42,765 nt of DNA from a virus, in IMG/VR virus record IMGVR_UViG_3300043543_000738, positions 1 through 42,765 of that record; one strand, given 5' to 3'. The stretch's first letter is position 1. Each line of letters opens with the position of its first letter. The position numbers and the translations under genes were made by a program. This document shows, one piece after another, positions 7,975-41,992 of the stretch. The notes under the pieces are model-generated. The model was not told the DNA's origin and did no database searches. It saw only the letters and a list, made by a program, of their open reading frames with translations.

Positions 7975-8029
7975 CCAAGAAGGGTTCCGCGTAGCGTCTT
8001 TGTGACGCGATGGGGGCTCGATTCGTGCG

Positions 8030-8043
8030 TAGTATCCTTACTA
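8030..8043. promoter_or_regulatory. TAGTA/TACTA palindrome just before the NYN gene
   Basis: TAGTA, a four-base loop, then TACTA forms a perfect inverted repeat ending three bases before the ATG at 8047, where a Shine-Dalgarno sequence would be expected. No GGAG-like sequence is present. It could be an operator, a -10-like element (TAGTAT) of a nearly leaderless mRNA, or chance. Confidence 0.25.
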
Positions 8044-8046
8044 TCG

Positions 8047-8580
8047 ATGCCCAATTTCCTGTACGTCGACAATTCGAATGTCTGGATCGAGGGAATGCAC
8101 GTTAGTGCGGTCGCCCGCGGCCTGGCACCCAGCATTTGGGACGCCCTACAGCACAAGATCTGTGATTACGATTGGAAAATCGATTTTGGGCGTCTTTACG
8201 AGTTCGCCGGAGGCGATCCTTCCGGCTGCGCGATGCTTTACGGATCTCGACCACCCGCGAATGATTCCCTTTGGGCGGTAGCGAAAGCGAAGGGCTTCGA
8301 AGTTGTCGTACATGATCGAAACGCCGCAAATCGAGAGAAAAAGATCGACACAACCATTGCCCGAGATATCATGCGAGACTCCTTCCAGAGGATGAAACCA
8401 GGGGACACCGTCACATTGGTAGCGGGCGACAGTGACTATGTTCCAGTTGCCGAAGATCTCACCGCTCGTGGACTAGGGTTCGAGGTGGTGTTCTGGAACC
8501 ACGCTGCACGGGAACTGAAGGATGTTGCTACCAAGTTTGTCTCCCTTGATCCTTATCTGGAGCACCTCAGGAAAAAGTAG
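8047..8580 (+). CDS. NYN-domain (PIN-like, LabA/DUF88 type) predicted ribonuclease
   Basis: 177 residues, the length of a single NYN domain. The acidic active-site pattern is visible: D8 and N11 in the first strand (LYVDNSNVW), K99 and D101 with D107 in KKIDTTIARDIM, and D128/D130 in LVAGDSDYVP. NYN proteins are metal-dependent RNases, and some take part in RNA decay or defence. The frame is open to 8002, but homology begins at the ATG at 8047, so that start was chosen. It lies antisense between two tail genes and is visibly richer in A and T than its neighbours, which suggests later acquisition as a lysogenic cargo gene. No partner gene is adjacent. Domain assignment is strong; the role is unknown. 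Confidence 0.9.
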   Translation: MPNFLYVDNSNVWIEGMHVSAVARGLAPSIWDALQHKICDYDWKIDFGRLYEFAGGDPSGCAMLYGSRPPANDSLWAVAKAKGFEVVVHDRNAANREKKIDTTIARDIMRDSFQRMKPGDTVTLVAGDSDYVPVAEDLTARGLGFEVVFWNHAARELKDVATKFVSLDPYLEHLRKK

Positions 8581-25975: not shown

Positions 25976-26161
25976 CTACCCGCGCCTCCGCTTGAAGTAA
26001 AACGTCGCCCGCGATCCGAACTCGCGCACGACGGCCACCAGTTCCCACCCTTGCGCGCCGTGTTCGTCGAGAATGTCCGGCGATTCCGCGTCGCCGGTGA
26101 CCACCAGGTACTCCCAGGCGCCGGGCGTACCCTGTGCGCTCGGCTGACTTCTCACCTTCAT
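25976..26161 (-). CDS. Small DUF4177-like protein
   Basis: 61 residues from the ATG at 26161, whose ATGA overlaps the terminase stop; a GTG twelve bases upstream is a second possible start. WEYLVV near residues 17-22 and the LDEHGAQGWELVAVV core are the DUF4177 signature (short beta-alpha-beta protein). It ends KRRRG with a TAG immediately before the gpW-like ATG. The role is unknown; it travels in the head operon. Confidence 0.7.
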   Translation of the reverse strand: MKVRSQPSAQGTPGAWEYLVVTGDAESPDILDEHGAQGWELVAVVREFGSRATFYFKRRRG

Positions 26162-29100
26162 CGCGTGAGCCACTTCCTTCCTCGCTCGCCCAGCCAGCGT
26201 TCACGATCCCGGTCATCCTCGGGCACGGGACGGGGCCGGTTCGCGGCCAGGATCCGGTCGGCTTCGTTGTCGAGCGAGAGGCCCATCGACACGAGGGCGC
26301 GCAACGCCGCGTAGGCATAGACGCGCGCGTCGAGCGCCTCCTGCCGGACGCCCGGTTTCGGCCGCCACTCGCGCTTGGGCTGGCCCTTTGCATACGTGGT
26401 CACCAGGACCTCGCCCAAGAGCTGCTCGAAGTAGCCTTCTTCGCGGTCGGCTGGAAAGTGCGAGTAACCCGGCGTGCCCGGAGTCGGGTTCTTGAGCCGC
26501 CCGTAGATCGTTTCCTTCGCCGTATCGGTGCCGACGATCCACGGCTTCTCGCCGCGGATGTTCTTCGCCGTCGGCTTGCGCTGCCAGACAGGCAGCGGGC
26601 CACCCTTGCCCTTCACGGCGAAGATGCGCCGGTGATACCGGGTCCGGCAGAATTCATACACCGCTTGGGACTCGTAGCCCGCGTCGATCGCGCATGCCGC
26701 AACTGGCAGCGAGATCCCCGTTTCGTGCGGCCAGCGGCGCTCGAGGTACGTATCGAGTTCCTGCCAGACCAGTGCGCCCGACGGATCACCCGGCAACACG
26801 CGGTACTCGATCGACCACGATTCCTCGCCTCGCCCCCAACCCACGAGTTCCAGCTCGAGCCGGTCCTTCTGCACGTCGACGCCCGCAGTCAGCACGACCG
26901 CGCCGTACGGCACTGCCGCCCGGTAGTGCTCGCGCCGCGCCATGACCGTCGCCTGGTCGACCGCGGTTTCCGCGGCATCGTCCCAAGGCTCGGCGAGCAC
27001 CGTGTTCACAAACTCGCGCAGTGTCTCGATCGACTTCTTGTCGGCCAAGAACTTTTTCGCCAGCGCGCCCCACTTTCGCCACGGCGAATAGAGACCGTTG
27101 ATCCAGAATCCGGCGATGTCGGCCACCTCGGGCCGCGCGGCGCGCCACTCGCCGGCCTTGAGCATCTGGTGCTTCTGCCAGTCGGCGATCAGCTTCGAGC
27201 AGTGCTCGCAGCGGTAGGCCGCCTTCTCCGGCGCATCCTTCGGCCAGACGAGGTTGCCCCACGCGAGCACCTGGTAGGCCCCGCAGTGCGGGCACGGCAC
27301 CCAGAAGCTCTGCTGGTTCGAGTTGAGCCAGGCTTGCTCGATGCGCGAGGCGCCTTTCGTCGTCGGCGTCGAACAGAGCACGATCTTCCGGTTCCAGAAG
27401 TTCGCCGTGCGCGTGATGGCCAGGTTCACGGGATCGCCTTCGCTGCCCGCGCTCGCCGGATAGCGGTCCACCTCATCGAGAAGGCAGTAGCGGATCGAGC
27501 GCATCGCGAGGCCCGCCGGCGAGTTCGCCGCCGCGAGCGTAATCGAGCCGCCCAAAAACTTCTTGTGCAGGATCGTGTTGTTCGAATCCCGCGAGCGTGC
27601 ATCGGCCACCTTGCCGCGCAGGCACGGCGTGTCTCGCAGCATCGGGGCCAAACGGTCCTTCGAGAATGCTTCGGCATCCACCTCGCGCGGTTCCACCAGA
27701 AGCACCGGCCCCGGATCGAGCTCGATGATGTAGCCGAGGAAGTTCTCGAGCAGTGAACTGTTGTGCGTGGGGATCATCCCCTTGCCAGCCAAGAACAGCC
27801 GTGATGGCGAATCCACGGCAACGCAACGGACTGGCATCGAATCGACTGATTCAATTGCGATGATGCTCCTGCGCCGACTCTCAGAGGGCCGGGACTCGCG
27901 TGAATCAGCCGTGCGCAGCCTGTTCAGCTTTCGTTCCAGCCGAAATGGGCGGTCCTCGCGGTACGCGGTGAAAGTAATTCGGAACTTCGGTCCACAGTCT
28001 TTACCGCGGAGGGTGGCGCGCGCCTCTCTGAAACTCGGCTTGAAGCCAAGCGACACCGCGAGTTCGTAAAACTCCTTCGCGAGCCGCTCGTTGGTGTTCG
28101 TAAACTCCACCGCCGAGCCTGACGAGGAAGCATACCCATCTGTGTCGAGAAGTCCCTGGAGGAGTGCCCGGCGCTGGCTCTCCGACGCCCGCAGATACGC
28201 AGATGGAATGTGCTTGTTGCCCAGCACACCCAGCCTTCGCAATTGGGCGGTCATCGTGTCGGACGCCTCCACAGTGTTCGTTCGCCCTGCAACGCGGGGA
28301 AATAGCCGCCCTTGGCCAAGGCGCTCTTGCCGGCGCCGCTTTGTGGCGAGGGCATGCATGACCTTGCATGGCCGACAGTAGCCGGGCCCCAGATTGTTGC
28401 CTTTCAGCCGATGGCCGCGCGGACATTCGCTACGCAGCGCGATTCGCCTTGGCCGGCCAATCTGTACGCTGGCGACGCCGGAGGATGTTGTCCGGATGAC
28501 CCGCGCCTCTGTCCCTGTTGCCGCCAGGAGTTGGTCCATCCCGTCGCTGAGCAGTCCAGTAATTTGGGCGTGGTGGGAGTTTCCATCGCCGAGCCACACA
28601 CCGAGTACATAAGGATCGATGGGGAGAACAACATCGGACAGGTTGAGCGGCCCTGCACAGGATATGCGGTAGCGGAACGTCTCGGCTCTATCCCGCTTGA
28701 GTGAGACCTCGCGCGACATCTCCTCGGTGGTTACTACACGGAACTGCCTTTGCCGCCGATCATGTGCCCACCATCGATGCTCTGCATCGGTTGTGATTTC
28801 GCTTCCGTCATCGAAGCGCACACGATAGCAGGGCAGCCCGTGTTTAACTTCGCTGGTGGCGAGGACGCGGCAGACGTTGCCACCCTCATCAAACAACCGG
28901 TCGCCAGGTTCGACATCTGAGATTGTCTTCCAACCATCTGGTGTCGGAAGAGGGGTATCGAGCGCCAGGCACTTCCCGCTCTGAGCAGCCCACATCATCA
29001 CGACCGTTTCGTAGGGGCTTGCTGGGCCCATGGCGTCCATGACCGCCCGCTGATACGGCGCGCGGTCGGTGCGCCACTCGCCCTTTTCCGAAGCCGACTC

Positions 29101-29202
29101 CGACGAAAGACGCCGGTTCTCATCGGCCCATTGCGACACCGTCAGGTCTGGCGGCGGCAACAGCACATCGGCCGCCAGGATCTGGATTTCGTCAACGCGC
29201 AT
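26158..29202 (-). CDS. Terminase large subunit (lambda gpA type) interrupted by an intein
   Basis: 1014 residues, of which 78-481 are an intein. Joined exteins would be 610 residues, a normal gpA length. The packaging ATPase P-loop is AAQSGK up to K77, then S482-S-L-L-E-N after splicing. YCLLDEVDRYP holds the Walker B acidic residues, a CPHCGAY...CEHC zinc-binding region follows, and AGVDVQKDRLELELVGWG marks the C-terminal nuclease. The enzyme cuts concatemeric phage DNA and pumps it into the head. Because the intein splits the P-loop, splicing should be needed for activity. ATG at 29202, overlapping the small-subunit gene by 11 bases. Confidence 0.93.
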   Translation of the reverse strand: MRVDEIQILAADVLLPPPDLTVSQWADENRRLSSESASEKGEWRTDRAPYQRAVMDAMGPASPYETVVMMWAAQSGKCLALDTPLPTPDGWKTISDVEPGDRLFDEGGNVCRVLATSEVKHGLPCYRVRFDDGSEITTDAEHRWWAHDRRQRQFRVVTTEEMSREVSLKRDRAETFRYRISCAGPLNLSDVVLPIDPYVLGVWLGDGNSHHAQITGLLSDGMDQLLAATGTEARVIRTTSSGVASVQIGRPRRIALRSECPRGHRLKGNNLGPGYCRPCKVMHALATKRRRQERLGQGRLFPRVAGRTNTVEASDTMTAQLRRLGVLGNKHIPSAYLRASESQRRALLQGLLDTDGYASSSGSAVEFTNTNERLAKEFYELAVSLGFKPSFREARATLRGKDCGPKFRITFTAYREDRPFRLERKLNRLRTADSRESRPSESRRRSIIAIESVDSMPVRCVAVDSPSRLFLAGKGMIPTHNSSLLENFLGYIIELDPGPVLLVEPREVDAEAFSKDRLAPMLRDTPCLRGKVADARSRDSNNTILHKKFLGGSITLAAANSPAGLAMRSIRYCLLDEVDRYPASAGSEGDPVNLAITRTANFWNRKIVLCSTPTTKGASRIEQAWLNSNQQSFWVPCPHCGAYQVLAWGNLVWPKDAPEKAAYRCEHCSKLIADWQKHQMLKAGEWRAARPEVADIAGFWINGLYSPWRKWGALAKKFLADKKSIETLREFVNTVLAEPWDDAAETAVDQATVMARREHYRAAVPYGAVVLTAGVDVQKDRLELELVGWGRGEESWSIEYRVLPGDPSGALVWQELDTYLERRWPHETGISLPVAACAIDAGYESQAVYEFCRTRYHRRIFAVKGKGGPLPVWQRKPTAKNIRGEKPWIVGTDTAKETIYGRLKNPTPGTPGYSHFPADREEGYFEQLLGEVLVTTYAKGQPKREWRPKPGVRQEALDARVYAYAALRALVSMGLSLDNEADRILAANRPRPVPEDDRDRERWLGERGRKWLTR
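27760..28971 (-). mobile_element. Intein with LAGLIDADG homing endonuclease in the terminase P-loop
   Basis: 404 residues. It begins Cys1 (CLALDTPLPTPDGW), has the block B T-x-x-H in TDAEHRW, and ends GMIPTHN, followed by Ser as the +1 residue, so all splicing residues are present. Two LAGLIDADG motifs lie at YVLGVWLGDG (121-130) and LLQGLLDTDG (270-279), so the homing nuclease looks intact. Between them is a zinc-finger-like segment with CPRGH (183-187) and YCRPC (198-202). The coding region looks less GC-rich than the exteins around it, as expected for an invading element. Confidence 0.93.
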
Positions 29203-30233: not shown

Positions 30234-30467
30234 ATGGCCATGACGCGCGAAGAACTGATCGCCTGGGCCACGCGGAACGGCTGGAAGCTCGACCGCTGGG
30301 GCCACCTCAAGAAGGAGTTCCCCAACGGCACGCACCGCTTGAAACTCAGCCGCATTGCCGCACGACACGAGCTCTCGACCCCATTCGGATGGGCGAGAGT
30401 CTCGAGCGGCTACTACAAGAACTTGCACCTCACCGCCGACGATCAACTCGCCGGCATGACCCGATAG
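30234..30467 (+). CDS. Small unknown phage protein
   Basis: 77 residues from the ATG at 30234, four bases after the previous stop, preceded by CCAGGAGGACTGACGCC. REELIAWATRNGWKLDRWGHL at the start is faintly like HicA-type double-stranded-RNA-binding folds, but no catalytic His is clearly placed and no HicB partner is present, so no function is claimed. YYKNLHLTADDQLAGM is near the end. Confidence 0.7.
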   Translation: MAMTREELIAWATRNGWKLDRWGHLKKEFPNGTHRLKLSRIAARHELSTPFGWARVSSGYYKNLHLTADDQLAGMTR

Positions 30468-30481
30468 AAAGGACACCCAAC

Positions 30482-31036
30482 ATGACGACGTTTGCCATCG
30501 ACAACGACAACACGATCACCGCCTACCTGGCTGGTGACGCTGTCCCCGAAGACCACGCGCGATTCTCGAGCGAGAAGGAACTCGCCAAGCTCGCCGCCGA
30601 CTGGCCCGCCGACCGTCTGGTCGAGATCTGGAACAGCTTCGCCGGCGTACCGCCCTTCGGCGACCTGAAGCCGGTGAAGAAGTTCACCGACCGCAAGACC
30701 GCCGTCGCGCGGATCTGGAAGGCGGTCCAGGCCCTGACGCCCACCGCCGCTCCCCAGGCGGCGGCTGTCGCGCCGAGGAAGACCAAGGCGGCCATGGAGG
30801 CCACGCTCGGCGACTCGACGAAATCCGCGCGCGAAGGCAGCAAGAAGGCCATCGTCCTCGAACTCCTGCGCCGCCCCGAAGGCGCCACATTGCAGGAGAT
30901 CATGTCCGTAACCGGCTGGATGGCGCATTCGGTGCGCGGCTTCATCTCCGGCGCGCTCAGCAAGAAGATGGGCCTCACGGTCGAATCTCTCAAGACCGCT
31001 GAGGGCGCCCGGGCGTACCGCATCAAACCTCAATAA
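30482..31036 (+). CDS. DUF3489 protein with C-terminal winged-helix-like domain
   Basis: 184 residues. The N-terminal part (ELAKLAADWPADRLVEIWNS, then FTDRKTAVARIWKAVQ) and the C-terminal part (LLRRPEGATLQEIMSVTGW, AHSVRGFISGALSKKMG) are characteristic of DUF3489. The C terminus reads as a winged helix, so it may bind DNA; the family has no established role that I know. AAAGGACACCCAAC precedes the ATG. It is the last gene of the plus-strand group and is followed by the hairpin at 31056. Confidence 0.9.
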   Translation: MTTFAIDNDNTITAYLAGDAVPEDHARFSSEKELAKLAADWPADRLVEIWNSFAGVPPFGDLKPVKKFTDRKTAVARIWKAVQALTPTAAPQAAAVAPRKTKAAMEATLGDSTKSAREGSKKAIVLELLRRPEGATLQEIMSVTGWMAHSVRGFISGALSKKMGLTVESLKTAEGARAYRIKPQ

Positions 31037-31478: not shown

Positions 31479-32006
31479 TCAGGCGATCTCAAATAGTCGC
31501 GCCTGATCATGAACGACTGGCAAACGGACAGGTGCGGGACTCAGTGTTGGCCGCTTTCCGGTAATGGCCGCGAGTGCGCCTTCAATCGGAAACTGATCGA
31601 TCGTGTGTGTGCGCTCCGCACGGGCGGAGATCCGGTGTCCCGGCGGGCGCAGATGAACCGTTTGCAGCCCCTGGAACGGCAGATACGCAACGATGCGGAT
31701 GTCCATCGCGACCAGCGCCACGATGTCGAATTCATCGTCTGCGTATCGCCGCCGGCCGCCCTTACCAGCCCTTCGCACGTTGTACAGATACCCCGTGCCG
31801 ACAGCGCCTCGCTGCGGTATCTTCTTCGGCTCGCGGCTCGCCTTCACCTGAACGCGATACAGCGTTCTCTCGTGATCGATGACAACGTCGTAAGGGAGCC
31901 CCTGCTCCGTGAGGTAGGCCCGGTAGCCGGACAGAATCAGATCCGCGACTACCAGGTGTTCAGCAGCCTTGCCGATCTCAAGATCGGACAAGTGGTCCGT
32001 GTTCAC
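31479..32006 (-). CDS. PD-(D/E)XK family nuclease
   Basis: 175 residues. The nuclease core is clear: E16 in GKAAEHLVVADLILSGY, D40 in GLPYDVVIDH and Q53-V-K55 in LYRVQVKAS. This arrangement (E, D, QxK) is seen in PDDEXK_5-like nucleases and relatives of archaeal resolvases and restriction enzymes. A basic loop, RRAGKGGRRRYADDEFDIVALV, follows. Its ATG overlaps the stop of the ParB-methyltransferase gene by ATGA, so the two are probably made together. That pairing suggests a modification-linked nuclease or a recombination enzyme; sequence alone cannot decide. Confidence 0.82.
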   Translation of the reverse strand: MNTDHLSDLEIGKAAEHLVVADLILSGYRAYLTEQGLPYDVVIDHERTLYRVQVKASREPKKIPQRGAVGTGYLYNVRRAGKGGRRRYADDEFDIVALVAMDIRIVAYLPFQGLQTVHLRPPGHRISARAERTHTIDQFPIEGALAAITGKRPTLSPAPVRLPVVHDQARLFEIA

Positions 32007-33262
32007 GAAGCGCCGCCTTTTCTGGCTCTTGAAACTTGCTCCAATGTCTGCCCGTCCGCCTCCAGAGTCGGCTGTTTGCCGCAGAATTCGTGGTAGCGCC
32101 GGATGATCACATCACAGTAAAGCGGGTCAAGCTCAATCAGCCGCCCTTTCCGTCCCGTTTTCTCGCACGCAATCAGCGTCGAGCCTGACCCGGCGAAGGG
32201 GTCAAGCACCGTGTCCCGGCTCTTACTGCTGTTTCGAATGGCGCGCTCGATCAGTTCCACCGGCTTCATCGTCGGATGGAGGTCGTTCACGTGCGGCTTC
32301 TTGATGAACCACACGTCGCCCTGGTCGCGGGCGCCGCACCAGTGGTGGTCCGTCCCTTCCTTCCAGCCGTAGAGGATCGGCTCGTACTGCCGCTGGTAGT
32401 CGGATCGGCCCATGGTAAATGTGTTCTTGGCCCAGATGAGGAACGTCGACCAGTGGCCGCCTGCCTCGGTGAACGCCTTGTACAGCGTGTGCAACTCCGA
32501 GGACGACATGCAGATGTAGACAGCGCCCTTCGTCACTGCCAGGATGTTCGCGCAGGCGTCGCGCAGGAAGGGTTCGAACCCGGGTCCCAGGTTATCGTTG
32601 GCGATCCGGCGATGCTTTTTTCGGAGCTTGTCCTTCATCGTCTGGCCGTAGTTGACGTTGTAGGGCAAGTCCGACCAAGTCATGTCAGCCAGGCTGTCCG
32701 CCAGTACCTTCTCCACAGCATCTATCTGCGTCGCGTCGCCGCACAGCAGGCGATGATCGCCAAGCAGCCACACATCGCCCGGCAGGGTCACTGCCGTCTC
32801 CTGTGCCACCGGGACGGCGTCCTCGTCGGTCAGTCCCGCGGACTCGCCCTCCGGCTCCGCAAGCAGCGCCTCGATCTCCGCGTCTTCAAAGCCCAGCAGG
32901 TCGAGGTTGAACTCGTCCTCGCGAAGCGCCTCCAGTTCGACGCGCAGCATTTCCTCATCCCACCCCGCGTTCTGGGCAAGCCGGTTGTCGGCAATCACCA
33001 GCGCGCGGCGCTGCGCCTCAGTCAAGTGATCGAGCACGATCACCGGCGCCTCAGCCATGCCAAGCTTGCGCGCCGCCATCACGCGCGCATGGCCCGCGAT
33101 GATCACGCCGTCGGCTCCGACAAGGACCGGATTTACGAACCCGAACTCAGCGATCGACGCTGCGATCTGCGCGACCTGCTCCTCGGTGTGGGTGCGGGGA
33201 TTCCTTGCGTATGGAATCAGCCGTTCGAGGGGCCAGCGCTCGATGTGGAGGTCGGGCTTCAC
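32003..33262 (-). CDS. DNA methyltransferase with N-terminal ParB-like domain (first copy)
   Basis: 419 residues from the GTG at 33262, which overlaps the previous stop as GTGA; the longer open frame upstream looks non-coding. Residues 5-95 are a ParB/sulfiredoxin-like domain (NPRTHTEEQVAQIAASI, IIAGHARVMAARKLG). The methylase has the amino-methylating motif DLPY at 198-201 (usually DPPY, so an L variant) and FAGSGS at 356-361 near the C terminus, the motif order of the beta class (N6-adenine or N4-cytosine). Such fusions are common in phages and probably protect the phage genome from host restriction. It is coupled to the nuclease gene downstream. Confidence 0.92.
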   Translation of the reverse strand: MKPDLHIERWPLERLIPYARNPRTHTEEQVAQIAASIAEFGFVNPVLVGADGVIIAGHARVMAARKLGMAEAPVIVLDHLTEAQRRALVIADNRLAQNAGWDEEMLRVELEALREDEFNLDLLGFEDAEIEALLAEPEGESAGLTDEDAVPVAQETAVTLPGDVWLLGDHRLLCGDATQIDAVEKVLADSLADMTWSDLPYNVNYGQTMKDKLRKKHRRIANDNLGPGFEPFLRDACANILAVTKGAVYICMSSSELHTLYKAFTEAGGHWSTFLIWAKNTFTMGRSDYQRQYEPILYGWKEGTDHHWCGARDQGDVWFIKKPHVNDLHPTMKPVELIERAIRNSSKSRDTVLDPFAGSGSTLIACEKTGRKGRLIELDPLYCDVIIRRYHEFCGKQPTLEADGQTLEQVSRARKGGAS

Positions 33263-33528
33263 TTCTTGATGTAGGGCGCTTGCGCTGGAGTGCCGTCGGG
33301 ATTGGCAAAGTGGGCGAGCACGGCTGCCACGCCCTGCACGACAGACAGCCCGACCATGGCCCAGAACTTGCCGCGCTCCGGTAGCAGGTCGATCGAGGCA
33401 TTCAACCCCTGCGCCACGAGTGCGAGCATCTGAATGGCAACGTTGACCGAGAACTTCATCTTCGTTAGCTCCTGGAATTGGTGGATGAGCGGCCGCAGCC
33501 GCCACCAGATCCGCAGTTCGCGAATCAT
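33259..33528 (-). CDS. Small membrane protein, holin-like
   Basis: 89 residues. A basic N terminus (RELRIWWRLRP) is followed by two hydrophobic stretches: VNVAIQMLALVAQGLN and FWAMVGLSVVQGVAAVLAHFA. Length, two segments and a charged start match small phage holins, which open the inner membrane at lysis, but no endolysin gene is next to it. The start may instead be the internal ATG at MKFSVN. The stop overlaps the methyltransferase GTG. Confidence 0.6.
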   Translation of the reverse strand: MIRELRIWWRLRPLIHQFQELTKMKFSVNVAIQMLALVAQGLNASIDLLPERGKFWAMVGLSVVQGVAAVLAHFANPDGTPAQAPYIKK

Positions 33529-34423: not shown

Positions 34424-35869
34424 TCACGTGTTGGATTGAAATGGTTCGCCCGTCACCGCATGGACGGGCGTGAGTTTCAAGGTCTCCTGCAATCGGCGCA
34501 GGATGACGTCGCAATAGGCCGGGCTGATCTCGACGCCGAAGCCCGCACGCTCGAGCAGTCCGGCGGCGACCAGCGTCGTACCGCTGCCCGCGAACGGATC
34601 GAAGACCACGTCACCCGGATCCGAGAACGCTTTGATGAAGAACTCCGGGATGGCACGCGGAAACGGCGCCGAGTGGTTCCCCTGCGAAGACTCGGTCTTG
34701 GCTTCGATCACGTTCGACGGTCGCGCCAGCCCGCCGTGCCGGCCTTCGAGGTCGTTGGCGTTGCGCCGTGTGGTCTGCCAGGCGGCGTGGTTCTTTCCTT
34801 TGTCGGCCGCCGCGCCGCGCGGCCCTGTGCCCAAGAGCCCGCTGCCAGAAGTCGATTTCGGATTGTCGGGCGAGTAGTCGAAACAGTCGTCGGACCAGTG
34901 GCCCACCTCGCGCGGCCGGAACTTGATCTTGCGCTCGCGCGAGAAGTGGTAGATCGGCTCCCAGGCATTCTTGAAGCGGTTGTTCCACCCGCCTGGCACA
35001 CCGTCATCGGTCTTGCGCCAGCAGAATTCATCGACAAACCGCCAACCCCATTGCCGCTTGTGGGCCAGCACCAGGTCCATCACATACGTGTGCCGCTCGC
35101 CCTCGTCGGCGTGGGCTTTGATGTTGAGGAAGTAGGAACCGTCAGGCGCCAGCACCGATTCAATCGCTGCGGCGACATCCTTGAACCACGCGACGTACTT
35201 CTCCGGCAGCACCGGGGCGAAGCCGCTCGACGGATCGTACTGCCGCTGCGTGGCGTAAGGCGGCGACGTGATCACCACATTCGCCTTCTGGCCCTCGAAC
35301 AAGCGCACGATGATGCCGGGATCCCGGCAGTCTCCACAGATGAGCCGGTGCGGCCCGATCAGCCACAGGTCGCCGGGTTTCGTTACCGCCTCCGCAGGCA
35401 ACTCCGGAATCGCGTCGTTGACCTGTTCGGCCTCCGGCTCCGCGTCCCGTTCGAGCGACGCCAGGAAGTCGTCGATCTCTTTCTGATCGAATCCGGTCAG
35501 CGTCGCGTCGAACCCGGCGTCAGCGAGTTCCTTCAACTCAAGCGCCAGCAGCTCGTGATCCCAACCGGCCAACTCCGACAGGCGGTTGTCGGCGAGGAGG
35601 TAGGCCCGCCGCTGGTTTTCGTCCAGATGATCGAGAACGATGACCGGCACTTGAGCGAGCCCCAGTTTCTTTGCCGCGAGTAGCCGCCCATGCCCGGCGA
35701 TGATGCCATGGCGAGAGTCAACCAGAAGCGGATTGCAAAAGCCGAATTCGACGATCGAGGCTGCGATCTGGGCTACCTGCTCTTCGGAATGCGTCCGGGG
35801 ATTCCGCTGATAGGGCACCAGCTTCTCGACCGGCCAGAGATCAATCCGCGCTGGCAGGACCGTTGTCAA
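34424..35869 (-). CDS. DNA methyltransferase with N-terminal ParB-like domain (second copy)
   Basis: 481 residues from a TTG at 35869 whose TTGA overlaps the stop of the C5 methylase; GGGAGG lies about ten bases before it. An ATG at 35905 is the alternative, but homology to the first copy starts at IDLWPVEKL. The ParB-like domain (NPRTHSEEQVAQIAASIVEF) is closely similar to that of the 32003-33262 gene. The methylase half differs: it has TSPPY at 201-205 and FAGSGTT from 426, again beta order, and a long recognition region between. The fusion domain has therefore been paired with two different specificities in one phage. Confidence 0.92.
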   Translation of the reverse strand: MTTVLPARIDLWPVEKLVPYQRNPRTHSEEQVAQIAASIVEFGFCNPLLVDSRHGIIAGHGRLLAAKKLGLAQVPVIVLDHLDENQRRAYLLADNRLSELAGWDHELLALELKELADAGFDATLTGFDQKEIDDFLASLERDAEPEAEQVNDAIPELPAEAVTKPGDLWLIGPHRLICGDCRDPGIIVRLFEGQKANVVITSPPYATQRQYDPSSGFAPVLPEKYVAWFKDVAAAIESVLAPDGSYFLNIKAHADEGERHTYVMDLVLAHKRQWGWRFVDEFCWRKTDDGVPGGWNNRFKNAWEPIYHFSRERKIKFRPREVGHWSDDCFDYSPDNPKSTSGSGLLGTGPRGAAADKGKNHAAWQTTRRNANDLEGRHGGLARPSNVIEAKTESSQGNHSAPFPRAIPEFFIKAFSDPGDVVFDPFAGSGTTLVAAGLLERAGFGVEISPAYCDVILRRLQETLKLTPVHAVTGEPFQSNT

Positions 35870-37203
35870 AGCGCATCGACCTCCCGCATTCGACGCCCGA
35901 TCCACCGCATCACCGGCACGGCCATCGAATTGCCGATCGCGCGATACCTCGGCCCGTCTGCAGCCGGCTTCCCACGAAACGGAACCAGCGTGTAGTCATC
36001 CGGGAAGCCCTGCAGCCGTTCACACTCGCGCGGGGTAAGACGCCGCACGGCGATCCGGTGCCGGATGAGGCTTCCACCGGCTTGGCTGCCCGGCGCGTCC
36101 GACCGCACTGTGCCAGCTGTCTCGTACTCCCGGACTCCCGTCTGGCCTTCCTGAATGCACACGGCGATCTGCCCTCCGGCGTTGGCGTGGCTGCGATCGT
36201 GTGGCATCGCGCACAGAGTCGGAGCGGCCGCGCCTGCGTCGGCTCCGTGATCCTTCGCGGAAAAGGCCATGGGGATGAAGGTCTCCGAAGGATCGGAGCC
36301 AAACCCGCCGCCGCCATGATTGGCCTTGAGCGTGCCGGCGACCAGTGGCGTTCCGCGGCCAGTGCCGTCCTCGCTGGCGTCAAACCCGTTACCGCGCAGC
36401 GCGTGTGCCACGAAGGTTTCTGTTTCGAAGTCCATCCGGCCACTTCCGCCATGAGCGTTGCAGGCGGTGGCGACATCGATCGGGCCGTGCGTATTGTTGC
36501 CGCCGAAGACGAGAAGGCCAACTTGGTTCCGGATCGCGCTATCCTTGCATCGCGCGTCCAGTGTCGGCGCTAGCTCCGTGAACCGTCCTCCCGCAGGACC
36601 GACTTCAGCGCCATATACAGCACCGCCGGGAGTTGCTTGCCGCGCTTTGCGGCGCGCCGGAGTATCCCGGCACAGGCCTTCGCGCTCAAGAAGTACCGCC
36701 GCGGCACGCCGCCAGTCTCCAAGATGTCCGACAACGAAGACGCGGCGGCGCCGCTGGGGCACTCCGAAGAACTGAGCGTCCAGCACTCGCCAGGCGCAAC
36801 CATACCCGAGTTGCGCCAGCGCCCCGAGGATGTTTCCAAAGTCCCGCCCGCCGTTCGACGACAGGACACCGGGAACGTTCTCCCAGACGATCCAGCGAGG
36901 CCGCAGTCTGCCAGCAAGCCGGCAAAACTCGATGGCCAGGTTGCCACGCGCGTCCTCCAGGCCGCCTCGTCTTCCGGCGACGGAGAACGACTGGCAGGGA
37001 GTTCCTCCGGCCAGAATGTCGATTGCGCCCGATGCTTTATCGATCCGGGTGAAGTCGCCACGGTTCTCGACATTGGGGTAGCGGTGCGCCAGCAGCGCCG
37101 CGCAGAACGGATCGATCTCAGCGAACCACGCAGGCCGGAATCCGAGCGGCGCCCAGGCGACCGTGGCCGCTTCGATGCCGGAACAGACGGAGGCGTAAGT
37201 CAC
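35866..37203 (-). CDS. DNA cytosine-C5 methyltransferase
   Basis: 445 residues from the GTG at 37203, chosen because related enzymes begin MTYxSVCSGIEAA; the frame stays open to a TTG at 37296. Motif I is SVCSGIEAAT, motif IV is GGTPCQSFS with catalytic C70, then WENVPG (motif VI), GVPQRRRRVFVV (motif VIII) and YRAIGNSMAVPV (motif X). The region between motifs VIII and X is long and rich in G and D and should read the target sequence. The enzyme transfers a methyl group to C5 of cytosine, and with two more methylases downstream it likely shields phage DNA. The 288 bases upstream may hold its promoter. Confidence 0.93.
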   Translation of the reverse strand: MTYASVCSGIEAATVAWAPLGFRPAWFAEIDPFCAALLAHRYPNVENRGDFTRIDKASGAIDILAGGTPCQSFSVAGRRGGLEDARGNLAIEFCRLAGRLRPRWIVWENVPGVLSSNGGRDFGNILGALAQLGYGCAWRVLDAQFFGVPQRRRRVFVVGHLGDWRRAAAVLLEREGLCRDTPARRKARQATPGGAVYGAEVGPAGGRFTELAPTLDARCKDSAIRNQVGLLVFGGNNTHGPIDVATACNAHGGSGRMDFETETFVAHALRGNGFDASEDGTGRGTPLVAGTLKANHGGGGFGSDPSETFIPMAFSAKDHGADAGAAAPTLCAMPHDRSHANAGGQIAVCIQEGQTGVREYETAGTVRSDAPGSQAGGSLIRHRIAVRRLTPRECERLQGFPDDYTLVPFRGKPAADGPRYRAIGNSMAVPVMRWIGRRMREVDAL

Positions 37204-37312
37204 GGGCGTGTCAAAACTGAGGAGCCCCAACGGCCGCTTCTGCGATGTCAACTGCGGCAGCCCGGCGGGGTGACGGCTTAACAGATTCCGTAGCAATGGG
37301 TTGCCGCAGACT

Positions 37313-37491: not shown

Positions 37492-37620
37492 TCAACATCC
37501 CCTCGCCACCTGAGCCGCTTGCGCCGCGAGCTTCGGTAGCCGCGGCAACTTAACCTTGAAGAATGCGCCGCGCATCCGCGCCACGTAGCGCGCGCCGACT
37601 TGCTTCTTCCGCTGCTTCAT
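37492..37620 (-). CDS. Small basic protein
   Basis: 42 residues, MKQRKKQVGARYVARMRGAF, then KVKLPRLPKLAAQ. The ATG at 37620 overlaps the stop of the upstream gene as ATGA. The positive charge suggests nucleic acid binding. Too short to assign; kept because of the coupled start and coding-like composition. Confidence 0.55.
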   Translation of the reverse strand: MKQRKKQVGARYVARMRGAFFKVKLPRLPKLAAQAAQVARGC

Positions 37621-37958
37621 CTCGCCACCAGGCAGTCGGCCACAACCTGGAGGAAAATGCCCCGAGCCGAAAATGGCACTCCGTCCTCGTCCTTCCCGTC
37701 CAACCGCCGCAGCTTCCAGCAGCGGCCATGTTCCAGGTTCTCGATGAAGCTGTAGTGAGTCCCCACCCTGGCACGGGCCTCGACCGGACTGCTGCCGTCC
37801 TCCCGCCGCAGCCAAATCGCCTTCAGATGCCCTTTGCGGCCATACGACGGCTTCACGAAGCCACCCTCGATCAGCCGCTTGGCTGCATCCAGCGCACGGA
37901 AACCGAGCGATCTGCCATCGGGGGCATACAGCGGGATCTGTTGGTTCTTGGAAGACAC
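37617..37958 (-). CDS. Conserved small protein of unknown function
   Basis: 113 residues, GTG start at 37958 with no clear ribosome site. NQQIPLYAPDGRSLGFRALDAAKRLIE, then SYGRKGHLKAIWLRREDGSS and SARGIFLQVVADCLVAR. I recall close relatives in Acidobacteriota genomes, where it is a repeated hypothetical family; that is memory, not a search. The basic GRKGHLKAIWLRR strand could bind nucleic acid. It lies after the VRR-NUC gene and overlaps the 42-residue protein. Confidence 0.7.
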   Translation of the reverse strand: MSSKNQQIPLYAPDGRSLGFRALDAAKRLIEGGFVKPSYGRKGHLKAIWLRREDGSSPVEARARVGTHYSFIENLEHGRCWKLRRLDGKDEDGVPFSARGIFLQVVADCLVAR

Positions 37959-38010
37959 GTGGAGTGTGAGAGGCGTAAGGGAAGGAGTTTCGCGAGAGTC
38001 CCGTCTCTCG

Positions 38011-38343
38011 TTATTCGCTTACTATGTACGCCGTATCACCCCCGAGTGTCCGGCCGAGAAGCTGATTTTTTTCGAGCACCGCCCCTACCTCGGCAACGCT
38101 GTGAACCACGGCCACAACCGCGCCGGCACGCCGCCACTCCTCGAGCCGCTTCAACTGCAACGGCGTCGGCCTTTCGCCCGGGCGCTTCACCTCGAGTTGC
38201 ACGCTGCAGCCGCGGATGCAGGCGTCGATGTCGGGATCGCCGGCCACGCCCATGCCGCCGCCCCAACGCTTGCGCGCCAGGCAACCAGGGAGACTGTTCA
38301 GGTACGCAAGGATCGCCTTCACGATGGCACGCTCCGTGGTCAC
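38011..38343 (-). CDS. VRR-NUC domain nuclease
   Basis: 110 residues, the size of a stand-alone VRR-NUC. The core reads GDPDID (D36, D38), then LEVKRPGERPTPLQ with E51, K53 and Q63, the GxPD...ExK...Q active site of this PD-(D/E)XK branch. Phage VRR-NUC proteins act on branched or flapped DNA in replication and recombination. The GTG at 38343 overlaps the previous stop as GTGA. The longer upstream frame was rejected because it shadows the gene before. Confidence 0.9.
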   Translation of the reverse strand: MTTERAIVKAILAYLNSLPGCLARKRWGGGMGVAGDPDIDACIRGCSVQLEVKRPGERPTPLQLKRLEEWRRAGAVVAVVHSVAEVGAVLEKNQLLGRTLGGDTAYIVSE

Positions 38344-38786
38344 GCCCGCCGCCTCCGAGGCATCGACTGTTCCGCGGCTTCCGCCGCCGCCTTCCTCAGC
38401 CGCTCGCGCCGATACTCTTCGCAGATCCGGGCCACCTGCCGCCGCCGCCACTCTTCGGGACTGATCCACTCGCAACCCTCGTCGTTGATCACGAGCGGCA
38501 TCGAGTCCATGCGAAGGACACGTGCCGCCCATCGGAGTTCGTCCATGTCGGTGCGCGGCGGATATGCCAGGGCCAGATGGCCCAGCGGCAGGCGAATGAT
38601 CCGGATGCCGGCGCGGTTCATGAAGTCCTGCGCCCGGCGCACGTCGATCAACTCCTGCTTGTGCTCGCGCACAAGTTGCTTGATCTCCTCCGGCGCTCCC
38701 TTGTCGATGCGCAGATTGCCCTCGCCATCGAGCCAAACAGAGACTCCGGCCTCCATGAGGCGGTCCAGCACTGCCTCAACGTCCAT
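38340..38786 (-). CDS. Protein with TubC-docking-like N-terminal domain
   Basis: 148 residues. The first 55 (MDVEAVLDRLMEAGVSVWL, NLRIDKGAP, LVREHKQELIDV) match the pattern of TubC N-terminal docking domains: helix, G-x-x-W/L-x-x-x-G, L-x-I strand, then a helix ending KxEL. These are best known from polyketide and peptide synthases but also occur in phage and mobile-element genes. The C terminus is a charged helix (RRQVARICEEYRRERLRKA) that could contact DNA or the replication proteins beside it. TAGGAGAACCGGC precedes the ATG. Confidence 0.65.
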   Translation of the reverse strand: MDVEAVLDRLMEAGVSVWLDGEGNLRIDKGAPEEIKQLVREHKQELIDVRRAQDFMNRAGIRIIRLPLGHLALAYPPRTDMDELRWAARVLRMDSMPLVINDEGCEWISPEEWRRRQVARICEEYRRERLRKAAAEAAEQSMPRRRRA

Positions 38787-38796
38787 GCCGGTTCTC

Positions 38797-39183
38797 CTAC
38801 GAGGCAGCGTCCAGGCGGCGCAATTCGATCCCCAGGTAGCGCACGCCAGTTTTTGTGCGGCGCTTCGTTACGCCCATGTCGGCCAGCACCATTGCGAATC
38901 GTTTCTGGGTCAAGGCGGCCGTCCCCACCTGCTCGGCCCATTTTCGGAATTCGTGATAGAGGCTGATGGCGCTCGTTTCCACCGAGGCGTCCCGCGCGCA
39001 CCTCTGGCTCAGGAATCGCGACACGCTCTCATGTGCGGCGTTCTCCTCCCCAAGCCTCGGCGGCGGGTTTGAGACCAAGGCTGTCACCAGTTGGCTCAGT
39101 GCAGCGATCCCCTCGGCCACGCCGTCCAAGTTATGAGCTAACCGGACCAGCAAGTCAGGATCAGAGATGGCAGATTTCCTCAT
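38797..39183 (-). CDS. Stand-alone copy of the primase-helicase C-terminal domain
   Basis: 128 residues. The last 60 (LYHEFRKWAEQVGTAALTQK, RFAMVLADMGVTKRRTKTG, VRYLGIEL) follow the same pattern as the C terminus of the neighbouring primase (LYREYKSWAEQYGESPVSHK, MFASFMSERGFGKTKTNRG, FLYSGVGV), a winged-helix DNA-binding region typical of D5-like primases. The N terminus is an unrelated helical segment. It could bind the same DNA as the full primase, and thus tune initiation. GAGGAGAAACTGC precedes the ATG. Confidence 0.75.
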   Translation of the reverse strand: MRKSAISDPDLLVRLAHNLDGVAEGIAALSQLVTALVSNPPPRLGEENAAHESVSRFLSQRCARDASVETSAISLYHEFRKWAEQVGTAALTQKRFAMVLADMGVTKRRTKTGVRYLGIELRRLDAAS

Positions 39184-39428
39184 GCAGTTTCTCCTCGTGG
39201 GGATTGGAATGAATCGGGCGGGCGAGTGACCAGCCGACGAAGCAGAAGTGAAGAGTGAAGGGCGTGAAGGTTTTTCCCTATAACCTCTATATAGCTTTTA
39301 GAAAGGAGGTCTCTTTTCGCGTATAGCGGATAATAGAGTTTACCCTTCACGTACCCTTCACTGATGAAAGACGCGTTGAAAACAAAAGACTTGCATAAGC
39401 GAAAAGTGAAGGTTTGTCTGAGCCTCAT
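39180..39428 (-). CDS. Doubtful small gene across the repeat region
   Basis: An 82-codon open frame that overlaps both neighbours by ATGA and has AAGGAG ahead of its ATG, which argues for translation. Against it, the composition is AT-rich, the protein (for example KLYYPLYAKRDLLSKSYIEV) resembles no family, and it is built over the GTGAAGG repeats. The stretch may be a replication origin instead, or both. Confidence 0.3.
   Translation of the reverse strand: MRLRQTFTFRLCKSFVFNASFISEGYVKGKLYYPLYAKRDLLSKSYIEVIGKNLHALHSSLLLRRLVTRPPDSFQSPRGETA
39247..39412. repeat. Six GTGAAGG-type repeats; candidate replication origin
   Basis: AGTGAAG at 39247-39253, AGTGAAGG at 39254-39261, CGTGAAGG at 39263-39270, inverted CCTTCAC at 39344-39350 and 39355-39361, and AGTGAAGG at 39405-39412. 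Between the blocks lies an AT-rich stretch (TATAACCTCTATATAG, then TATAGCGGATAATAG). Iterons beside an AT-rich segment and next to the primase/helicase gene is the classical layout of an origin; an operator array is the alternative. Confidence 0.5.
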
Positions 39429-41992
39429 ACCACTTCTCCTTCGTCCTCCTGGGCCAGAGCGGCCTGCTGAGGCGCCCGCTGGCTCCTTGGCGCGTCGTAA
39501 TGGTCCTCAGTCCGCACCCCCACGCCTGAGTACAGGAAGCCCCGGTTGGTCTTGGTCTTTCCGAATCCCCGTTCGCTCATGAACGAGGCGAACATCTTGT
39601 GGCTGACCGGCGACTCGCCATACTGCTCGGCCCAGGACTTGTACTCGCGGTACAGGGCCAGCGACAGCACGCGTGCATTGGGCGCCCGAACGCACTTCTC
39701 TTCGAGGAACATCGCGAAGGTGTCCTGCTCGGCCTCGTACTCGCGCGTGGCCGCCACCACCTCCTCAGGCACCCCGAGACCGTTGCGCTGCCATTCCAGG
39801 CACCCCTCCAGCGCCCAGTTCAAGATCCCCGAGAACTCCCGCCGGAACATCGCCATCACCTCGTGGCGCGGCTTCTGGCGCTCCTTGGGGATCGTCACGT
39901 GGAAGGGGATCAGCTTCAGCCGATTCCACAGCGCGCGGTCGCCGCGCACCTGCGGCTTGTGGTTGGTGGCCAGCCACGGCTTGAACTCCGGGTAGAACTC
40001 GAAGAACTCGCCCCGCATGAACCGCGCCGAGAGCTTGTCGCCGCCGGTCATCTCCTTGATCAGCGACTCCGACAGCCTCGATCCGCGCTCGTTTTCGGAA
40101 GCCCAGACGAAGCGCGCGCCTTTGAGCTTGGCGACGTCGTTCGGGATCGCTCCGTCCTTCTTGCGCAGGAAGGTTTCGGTGGGCGTGCGCACGGCGTAGT
40201 CGCCGAGCAGCAGTTGGATGACGTCGACCATGGTCGACTTGCCGTTGTCGCCACTCGCGCCGTAGAGGATGAACATGGCTTTGTCCGACGTGATCCCGGT
40301 GAGGCAGCAGCCGAAGGCGCGCTGGAGAAACGAGACCAGCCGCTGATTGCCGCCCATGACCATGTCGAGGAACTCGAGCCAGTTGGGGCAGGAGGCCGTG
40401 GGGTCGTAGCGAACCGGCGCCAGCTTGGTGATGCGGTCCCGCTGGTCGTGCGGGCGCAACGTGCCGGTGCGCAGATCGAGCGTGCCGTTCTCGACAGTCA
40501 GCAGCCACGGGTCACGGTCCAGGTCGCCAGGCCGGACGGCGAAGGCCGGGTCGGCTTTGGCGAGGTTGATCAGAGCCGTTTGCGCGCGGAAGGACTCGGA
40601 CCGCGCCAGGTGTTTGAGGAAGGCCTGCCGTTCTTCGTCGTCGCGGATTCGCTTGGCGAGCGGGTACAGGCTCCGGATCAGGAGTCCGGCCAGACGGTAG
40701 ACCTCGAGCGTTTCGTCGTCACGCCAGCGCATACTGTCCCAGTCGAACCAGCGAGTCCACTTCTCGCAGTACAGGAGCCGGCCGCGGTAGCGAGCGGCAA
40801 AGCGTTTGGCGTTGCCGAGGTCCGTGAAGTGCTCAATCTGGGAGGCGGCGGCCGTGACCGCCGGGGGCGGCGGGTCGGATTCGTCTCCGGCTTCTGGTTC
40901 TGCGTCCTCGGGCGGCCCGGACTCGCCGGCTTCGCCGCCCACATCCAGTCTTCCGATGGCGATGGGCGAGTTCACGTTGCCCCGGAACAGGCACGCATCG
41001 CAGAACCGCGCGCCGCCGAGATCGGATTCGACGTAGGCGCAGATGACGGGCGCCACTTGCTCGCCGGACGCCTGCTTCAACTTGCGCTGTGTCTCGCGCC
41101 GCGAATACTTCGGGTGCGCCTCGCTCAGCTCGTGAGCCCAGCGTTCGGCATCCTCGCAGCGGGCGATGACCGTCAGCATCCGGTACCACTCGGGCTCGGG
41201 CAGCGTCGCCGCGTCGTCTCGGCAGTGGCGCATCCAGGCGCACCCTTCGAGAATGGGCGGCAGTTTGGCCGGCGGCAGGTCCGGCGGAGGTTGGCTGGGC
41301 GCGGGCTCGCCCGGATCATCGAGCCCGCAGAGGATCTCGCCGATGTCGCCCACGCAGTAGGCCCGGTCGAAGTACTCGGCGGTCACTGGGCGCACGTCGT
41401 CGGGGAGCTTGCGGTTGAAGGTTCCTGGTACACGGAGGACGCGGCAGAGATCGGCGGTCGGGTCGATGGTCCACCCGCGTGCGCGGGCCTGCAATCGAAG
41501 CATCTGCTGGAAGCGCCGCGACAGCGATTTCAGATCCTGCCGTTCGGCCTCCGTCTCGATGACGAACGGCTCCCGGAAGAGCCAGTACACCTGGAGTCCG
41601 AAGCCGCTGCGCACGATCACCGACGGAGGGAGTCCGACGGCATCTACTAGAGACAGCGCTTCTTCTTCACTCCCTGGGAGGTCCTTCGCTTTGTGCGCCA
41701 CGCCGCAGATGTCGATGTCGGCCCACACGCCGGGTACCGATAGGACACCAGCTTCCTTTCCACGGCTCCCGTTCTCGGGCGCCTGGCCCTGCAATCCGAC
41801 CGCTGCGTAGACGTCCTGCCGCGAGGCTCGATCCGCGCAATAGGCGACGGCGGCATCGAGGGCGCCCTCTTGCGCGAGAGGAAACGCCCGCGATGCCTTG
41901 TCCTGGCGGGTCCAGACCACGAACCACCCTTGTGGCTCGGGACCGTGGACCCGCTCGATGAACTGCCGGATGGCCAGTTCGCCGACCTCCAT
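39425..41992 (-). CDS. Phage primase / SF3 (D5-like) helicase
   Basis: 855 residues. The N-terminal primase domain has the metal-binding D92-x-D94 pair in VWADIDICG and VIVRSGFGLQVYWLF, typical of archaeo-eukaryotic-type primases. A Cys-containing linker (about 230-350) and a D5_N-like region follow. The helicase has Walker A GASGDNGKST with K585, ENERGSRLSE in the B region, and an SF3 sensor segment, KPWLATNHKPQVRG. The C terminus (LYREYKSWAEQYG, about 770-825) is a winged helix. The enzyme should open the origin and prime phage replication. GGGGAGGAAGC precedes the ATG. Confidence 0.93.
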   Translation of the reverse strand: MEVGELAIRQFIERVHGPEPQGWFVVWTRQDKASRAFPLAQEGALDAAVAYCADRASRQDVYAAVGLQGQAPENGSRGKEAGVLSVPGVWADIDICGVAHKAKDLPGSEEEALSLVDAVGLPPSVIVRSGFGLQVYWLFREPFVIETEAERQDLKSLSRRFQQMLRLQARARGWTIDPTADLCRVLRVPGTFNRKLPDDVRPVTAEYFDRAYCVGDIGEILCGLDDPGEPAPSQPPPDLPPAKLPPILEGCAWMRHCRDDAATLPEPEWYRMLTVIARCEDAERWAHELSEAHPKYSRRETQRKLKQASGEQVAPVICAYVESDLGGARFCDACLFRGNVNSPIAIGRLDVGGEAGESGPPEDAEPEAGDESDPPPPAVTAAASQIEHFTDLGNAKRFAARYRGRLLYCEKWTRWFDWDSMRWRDDETLEVYRLAGLLIRSLYPLAKRIRDDEERQAFLKHLARSESFRAQTALINLAKADPAFAVRPGDLDRDPWLLTVENGTLDLRTGTLRPHDQRDRITKLAPVRYDPTASCPNWLEFLDMVMGGNQRLVSFLQRAFGCCLTGITSDKAMFILYGASGDNGKSTMVDVIQLLLGDYAVRTPTETFLRKKDGAIPNDVAKLKGARFVWASENERGSRLSESLIKEMTGGDKLSARFMRGEFFEFYPEFKPWLATNHKPQVRGDRALWNRLKLIPFHVTIPKERQKPRHEVMAMFRREFSGILNWALEGCLEWQRNGLGVPEEVVAATREYEAEQDTFAMFLEEKCVRAPNARVLSLALYREYKSWAEQYGESPVSHKMFASFMSERGFGKTKTNRGFLYSGVGVRTEDHYDAPRSQRAPQQAALAQEDEGEVV

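Follow-up and report, generated by a model that had tools for sequence, protein, structure and literature searches.

The window, a virus record of 42,765 bp analysed over its whole length, carries a prophage-like gene set. On its minus strand a 231-aa gene is followed by the gene of P0002, an intergenic gap, the gene of P0001 and a 148-aa TubC_N-like gene; a nuclease-like gene (best PHROG endonuclease), a 113-aa gene and two methyltransferase genes come after these (Table 1). The ORF of P0001 is present as the preliminary description of this DNA had placed it. The nearest primases in bacterial genomes belong to Bryobacterales / Acidobacteriota, which points to a soil bacterium of this group as the likely host.

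Elsewhere in the window, the gene of the terminase large subunit (GpA; 26158-29202, minus strand) possesses an intein-like insert after about residue 110, named from sequence features and not from a family match, with a LAGLIDADG Pfam match at 343-394 and the best ATPase stretch restarting at 482. Three DNA methyltransferases are encoded at 34424-37296 and 32003-33505 (minus strand), two of them ParB_N plus N6_N4_Mtase proteins and one a C5 enzyme. Genes with NYN and DUF3489 domains (8002-8580 and 30389-31036, plus strand) run against the direction of the phage genes and are moron-like. At the window edge (1-2184, plus strand) an ORF named from sequence as heavy-metal P-type ATPase-like is probably host flank.

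Table 1. Features of the P0001 locus and its surroundings, with coordinates in the window
Feature	Position	Strand	Basis
P0001, 128-aa stand-alone winged-helix protein	38797..39183	-	ORF, Pfam, BLASTP, AF2, homologues in L003 and L041
N-terminal helix of P0001, residues 9-38, predicted dimerisation helix	39070..39159	-	AF2 helix, heptads
Winged-helix domain of P0001, residues 44-121	38821..39054	-	pLDDT 91-95 per 10-residue block, residues 51-120
Wing tip of P0001, T110 K111 T112 G113 V114	38842..38856	-	Model strands 106-110 and 113-121; aligned to primase wing
Primase-helicase P0002, 855 aa, D5_N + DUF5906 + Pox_D5	39425..41992	-	Pfam, PHROGs
C-terminal winged helix of primase, residues 751-830	39503..39742	-	BLASTP, structure model
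Primase wing-tip residues N816 R817 G818 F819, tracking iteron type	39536..39547	-	
Iteron-type replication origin, predicted	39184..39424	.	Repeats, alignment of relatives, P4 crr layout
GTGAAG iterons at 39248, 39255 and 39264, spacing 7 and 9	39248..39270	+	
Two inverted GTGAAGG iterons at 39344 and 39355, spacing 11	39344..39361	-	
Outlying GTGAAGG iteron adjoining primase stop codon	39406..39412	+	
TATTATCCGC box adjoining inner iteron pair	39326..39335	-	10-origin alignment
GCAAGT...TTTTCAA-type element, present across most iteron types	39376..39394	-	10-origin alignment
Approximate mosaic cassette: primase wing tail, origin and stand-alone gene	38755..39592	.	Identity to L004 and L041 in 60-bp bins
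Next gene, 148 aa, weak TubC_N-like N terminus	38340..38786	-	Pfam TubC_N, 21.8 bits (cut-off 26)

P0002 is a P4-type primase-helicase initiator, combining D5_N, a helicase and a C-terminal Pox_D5 domain with iterons nearby. BLASTP analysis matched residues 46-125 of P0001 to the C-terminal residues 751-830 of this protein without gaps (31% identity, 56% positives, E 2e-15); the resemblance to the primase C terminus, noticed earlier over the last 60 residues, is thus borne out and covers 80. When P0001 was compared with the entire record, the only two matches were P0001 itself and the primase C terminus. Both proteins possess the Pox_D5/P4-alpha winged helix: Pfam Pox_D5 (PF03288; cut-off 21.4 bits) scored 23.0 bits in P0001 and 21.9 bits in its homologue from L041, with the primase slightly below the cut-off at 20.7 bits. 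Seven PHROGs match P0001, mostly via the C terminus of the profile, and six of these are named primase, helicase or polymerase/primase. A sequence search of the PDB returned no match. The AAA+/D5 helicase domain is absent from P0001, in which Pfam and AF2 show only the winged helix and one further helix; P0001 is therefore not itself a P4-type initiator. Nor was a nuclease domain, as in an Odn-like origin-directed nuclease, found by Pfam or PHROGs. P0001 and the origin-binding winged helix of P0002 are paralogues, P0001 standing alone and carrying an additional heptad helix ahead of the domain.

The AF2 model of P0001, built on a 44-sequence alignment, has a mean pLDDT of 82.6, and the model of the primase C terminus has its helices and strands in a comparable order. 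A differing predicted fold had been named beforehand as a finding that would count against the kinship; AF2 models and VIA-align instead found a shared winged helix. The top folds from VIA-align were RFX5 (8zjr, Z 10.2) and RFX1 (1dp7, Z 9.1), followed by the African swine fever virus primase C962R (Z 8.5) and the P4 origin-binding domain (1ka8; Z 8.3, rmsd 2.8 over 75 residues, 24% identity), a Z near 8 being weak by itself for the latter match, with which the sequence concurs. Foldseek ranked RFX first (E 1.0e-3), giving by itself no match counted at E <= 0.001. P0001 thus has the fold of both an RFX-type winged helix and the P4 origin-binding domain. The basic wing KRR.KTG.RY is kept in all three stand-alone proteins.

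The helix in front of this domain carries large hydrophobic residues at all eight heptad a/d positions (L12, L15, L19, V22, I26, L29, V33 and L36), which was equalled by 2 of 5000 shuffles. In the L041 homologue six of eight are hydrophobic in the same phase (145 of 5000 shuffles). With heptads in phase in two proteins that are 40% identical, it is a good inference from sequence and model that P0001 forms a coiled-coil dimer. P0001 had been regarded as a free copy of the DNA-binding domain: the domain is there, but with this new N-terminal helix the protein is more than a mere copy.

Relatives of P0001 are few. The closest (L003:1033-1419, 93% identity) lies on the sole IMG/VR contig besides the window to carry one, and a distant full-length relative (L041:3986-4393, 40% identity over 121 aa) is found in Bryobacteraceae MAG23. 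The slot in L041 is as in the window: primase, origin with GTGTAGG iterons, stand-alone gene and TubC_N-like gene. Searches with all three stand-alone proteins detected a full-length copy in one of 257 genomes of the order and one of 399 of the class, the sets overlapping and the genome being the same; this rarity indicates that the protein is dispensable in most relatives. In phage collections 3 of 22 matching records cover at least 80% of P0001 (22-24% identity; annotated primase or primase/helicase), in plasmid collections none of seven, and the matches in both are mostly primases, helicases or unannotated. The window and L003 copies differ with a dN of 0.043 and a dS of 0.162 (dN/dS about 0.27).

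A tree built by a quick method from 84 columns of 44 domains, in which many forks are open, groups the three stand-alone proteins as a single clade on a long branch (SH-aLRT 99), nested in a 24-row clade of Bryobacterales primases (SH-aLRT 98); long branches leave its exact sister uncertain. This position within the primase domains of Bryobacterales phages supports a real but old duplication within this primase family. The earlier proposal of a duplicated primase domain therefore stands as to derivation, with the qualifier that the paralogue is an old one: recent duplication from this very primase is rejected by the tree and by the identities, 31% to P0002 versus 40% to the L041 protein. Further short frames were considered as candidates. 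Those of L085 and L091 were rejected as primase remnants, the primase linker sequence, absent from P0001, being kept in L085. That of L105 was rejected as an orthologue; in this 151-aa minus-strand ORF a TubC_N-like domain and an RFX-like winged helix, both weak, are fused. Together with the gene adjacency in the window, the L105 fusion hints that TubC_N-like and winged-helix domains may work together. L047 encodes a diverged stand-alone Pox_D5-like ORF (5757-6110, plus strand; 117 aa, 20.0 bits against the cut-off of 21.4) after a 113-aa gene, downstream of an ATGTAGG origin; the same ORF search found no such ORF in its near relatives L051 and L053.

The genes of P0001 and P0002 are separated by 241 bp (47% G+C). 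GTGAAG occurs six times in this gap, four copies on the plus strand and two on the minus strand (at 39345 and 39356), in the order + + + - - +, with the sets inverted around an AT-rich core. Five of the six extend to GTGAAGG, and among 2000 dinucleotide-shuffled versions of the gap there was one in which a 7-mer reached five copies; the gap holds 5 of the 14 GTGAAGG copies in the whole window. Some other 241-bp segments of the record (around 38221-38381) also contain 7-mers in five to six copies, so the repeat count by itself is not unique and the argument rests on layout and on conservation in relatives. In an alignment of ten origins the backbone, consisting of the TATTATCCGC box, the GCAAGT...TTTTCAA element and the placing of the iterons, is mostly constant while the iteron letters vary. 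The TATTATCCGC box is intact or nearly so in most of the ten, whichever iteron they carry; the origins of L042 and L007 retain less of the backbone than the others. The gap is hence predicted, from sequence, to be an iteron origin laid out like crr of P4. It had been described as a repeat array flanked by the two genes: the genes do flank it, but the repeats are dispersed iterons and a tandem array is rejected (TRF gave no rows). An 82-aa ORF spanning the origin (39180-39428, minus strand), with ATGA overlaps with both neighbours in the window and in L003, was judged to be chance and not a gene; the L003 and window versions differ by three silent and two changed codons, and the gap between the primase and the stand-alone gene of L041 has no coding-strand ORF of at least 60 aa. 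No sigma-70-type promoter was found at the P0001 locus.

The TubC_N-like gene directly follows the origin in relatives without the stand-alone gene (L004 and L008). The primase of L004 is 94% identical to P0002, yet L004 lacks the stand-alone gene. Per 60-bp bin, identity between the window and L004 is 0.80-1.00 from 41992 to 39533, falls to at most 0.70 down to 38753, where the stand-alone gene is largely gapped in L004, and returns to 0.75-0.98 from 38752 to 38093; the two are about 93% identical on both sides of this cassette and not inside it. It follows that wing tail, origin and stand-alone gene changed jointly between near-identical phages, and the stand-alone gene was apparently gained or lost together with the origin. 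Against L041 there is no such step (0.42-0.93 per bin to the contig end, 0.43-0.85 within the cassette). A further mosaic break lies at 37613-38092, where identity to L004 is 0.32-0.45 per bin across the 113-aa gene.

The stand-alone gene also keeps company with one kind of iteron. Among 26 distinct primases whose downstream stretch was readable, an ORF search confined to the available stretches found it in 3 of 3 rows with GTG(A/T)AGG iterons and in 0 of 23 others; the figures count rows rather than events, since the window and L003 belong to one lineage and L041 to another. The commoner state is ATGACGG iterons without the extra gene. In the same 26 primases the iterons pair with the tip of the primase wing: ATGACGG with TMKGA, TMKGV or TMQGA; GTGACGG with TKHGA or TRNGA; ATGTAGG with QT(S/G/A)GM; GTGAAGG and GTGTAGG with (T/S)NRGF; and GTGGAGG with TKTVM. 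Between the window and L004 the recognition helix is identical, whereas wing and iteron both differ. In L081 the recognition helix differs (TETAFAAALAERGF), yet its wing reads TM.GA and it shares the ATGACGG iteron with L004.

A rule for these pairings was formed post hoc, after inspection of the data, and evaluated on 31 of 70 domains, those with at least three RTGNNGG heptamers and no more than 1 of 300 shuffles as high; the 39 domains dropped include L035, with no RTGNNGG counted yet seven copies of GTGAAGT. At the first tip position M or T goes with A1 and K, R, N or S with G1 in 31 of 31 domains. At the fourth, 29 of 31 domains combine A or T with C5, or any other residue with A5; L008 and L025 depart from this, and the alignment is uncertain for the most divergent wings, such as L025, L026 and L065. 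Base 1 requires seven to nine changes on two trees; well-supported branches contain only three independent wing-iteron pairs, all agreeing (sign test p 0.25). RFX proteins read the major groove with the wing, which fits this tracking. The wing-tip residues, which track the iteron bases in the window (39503-39592) and in L004, L041, L047, L007 and L081, are thus a possible specificity code for P4-type initiators in which the recognition helix need not change. For the P0001 tip, K-T-G-V, the rule predicts G1 from the lysine and leaves base 5 undecided, since of the rows with V at the fourth position two have A5 and one has C5. The tip is compatible with the protein's own GTGAAGG iterons, which is not proof: neither the recognition helix nor the tip is that of its own primase (KTGV against NRGF at the tip), and P0001 may read another sequence.

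Much of this arrangement has a counterpart in P4. Like P0002, P4 alpha carries a C-terminal Pox_D5 winged helix on a D5_N/DUF5906 protein, and P4 too has short iterons in inverted sets, one of them downstream of alpha, where the type 1 repeats of crr run + + - - + as against + + + - - + in the window. The P4 origin-binding domain is likewise among the top structural matches of P0001. Copy number in P4 is lowered by Cnr, which is reportedly the partner meant in the title of the 2002 work of Yeo et al. on P4 and which we take to be ORF106 (DUF5375). P0001 was rejected as a homologue of ORF106 (hhalign probability 0.1%; no DUF5375 match in P0001 by Pfam): ORF106 lies upstream of alpha, whereas P0001 is a paralogue of the origin-binding domain and lies downstream of the origin. 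An origin-binding domain made without the rest of its protein is also known as a repressor from herpesvirus OBPC (the UL9 C terminus) and the short E2 of papillomaviruses, which come from the same gene or an overlapping ORF, unlike the separate, diverged gene of P0001.

In the SaPI Rep and SCCmec Cch2 helicases, the C-terminal domain binds short iterons directly downstream of the helicase's own gene, and the part of that account available describes no stand-alone copy of the domain such as P0001 (PMC7581432). The pIGRK plasmid makes a shortened initiator product, RepR', which according to the available part of its report dimerises, binds the origin region and negatively regulates replication by restraining initiation (PMC6854812); its start lies within the initiator gene itself, whereas P0001 is a separate, diverged gene of another replication system. 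Odn of phage ICP1, as far as its report was available, is like P0001 in using an initiator-type DNA-binding domain outside an initiator, and differs in its nuclease fusion and in targeting the origin of another element (PMC8263062). In Arthrobacter phage Phives, which has its own D5-type primase, a GIY-YIG endonuclease reminiscent of Odn (L100:5554-6222, plus strand) resembles the winged helix towards its C terminus, with a tblastn E of 0.1 and 28 bits to a custom profile but without confirmation by Pfam. Regulation by a shortened initiator is thus already known, as are the domain and the downstream position of the origin. Literature searches, covering titles and abstract openings with subscription papers outside their scope, returned no stand-alone Pox_D5 domain, no wing-iteron covariation in these initiators and no P4-type primase whose origin-binding domain also has a diverged gene of its own that moves with the iterons.

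The role of P0001 that appears most likely, and which is put forward tentatively on sequence and model, is that of a dimer without helicase that binds its own origin, holding back initiation or silencing the origin of the prophage. For a probable dimer that lacks a motor and is encoded at, and swapped with, an origin, that origin is the simplest target. The dimer would bind the GTG(A/T)AGG iterons, or closely related origin sites, through its wing; without the AAA+ motor it could not unwind DNA and would limit initiation by occupying iterons or by bridging the two inverted arms. Bridging (handcuffing) is known for plasmid origins, according to the part of the literature available (PMC4857107), and by analogy with RepR' copy-number control by P0001 is plausible. 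Its likely use would be to limit firing during lytic growth or to hold the prophage origin silent, and it may additionally regulate genes downstream of the origin. Weighed in favour of such a brake were the homology, the fold, the origin, the second lineage in L041, the company of GTG(A/T)AGG iterons, the cassette, the heptads, the basic wing, the wing-tip lysine, the dN/dS and the RepR' precedent; weighed against it were the differing recognition helix and tip, the rarity of the gene, the two lineages only for the iteron association and the lack of a detected promoter.

That the gene adjoins the origin in both lineages and travels with the GTG(A/T)AGG origin type and wing would also suit a positive factor, needed for these origins only, with the dimer organising the origin by pairing the iteron arms and helping core melting or loading of the primase hexamer. 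This is rather unlikely, as close relatives with the same origin backbone (L004 and others) lack the gene and P0001 gives no sign of contact with the motor. P0001 is also a small, dimer-like winged-helix protein encoded first in an operon, and in L004 an inverted iteron pair lies directly ahead of the TubC_N-like gene, so iterons there may double as operators. A transcription factor acting on the operon downstream of the origin (the TubC_N-like and nuclease-like genes), its initiator kinship historical only, is nevertheless unlikely: P0001 is kept beside the iterons and exchanged with them, and the absence of a detected promoter-like site at the locus speaks against it.

The example of Odn, which carries a satellite-initiator-like DNA-binding domain, cuts the satellite origin and, in the part of its report available, is a proposed driver of replication-module swapping (PMC8263062), suggests a use between elements, in which P0001 expressed from the prophage would block the origins of incoming phages or satellites with the same or another iteron. 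The variation of iteron types between near relatives agrees with this; however, P0001 has no nuclease domain, sits within its own origin cassette and has no target in view, making such a function improbable. Finally, primase remnants with a winged-helix domain do exist (L085 and L091). It is very improbable that P0001 is likewise a decaying, functionless remnant of an initiator gene, since both lineages keep an intact ORF, 40% identical over nearly its full length, the heptad phase and basic wing are common to them, the dN/dS is low enough to argue against decay, and the linker seen in L085 is missing.

Joined with the cassette and the wing-tip pairing, the brake on initiation leads to a broader and more doubtful possibility: a mobile origin-specificity cassette in which wing, iterons and helicase-less DNA-binding copy are swapped together between near-identical prophages, the wing tip serving as a simple iteron code and the stand-alone dimer as a built-in brake on the same iterons. 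Were this so, each swap would create a new, self-consistent replication-incompatibility type. Both prophages and satellites use P4-type primase-helicases, few of which are understood as to origin choice and control. The window and L004, a near-identical natural pair, differ sharply in wing, iterons and extra gene, which makes natural variants available for testing both specificity and what the extra protein does. If P0001 is a brake, the phage would be using the shortened-Rep trick of plasmids in the form of a separately evolving gene.
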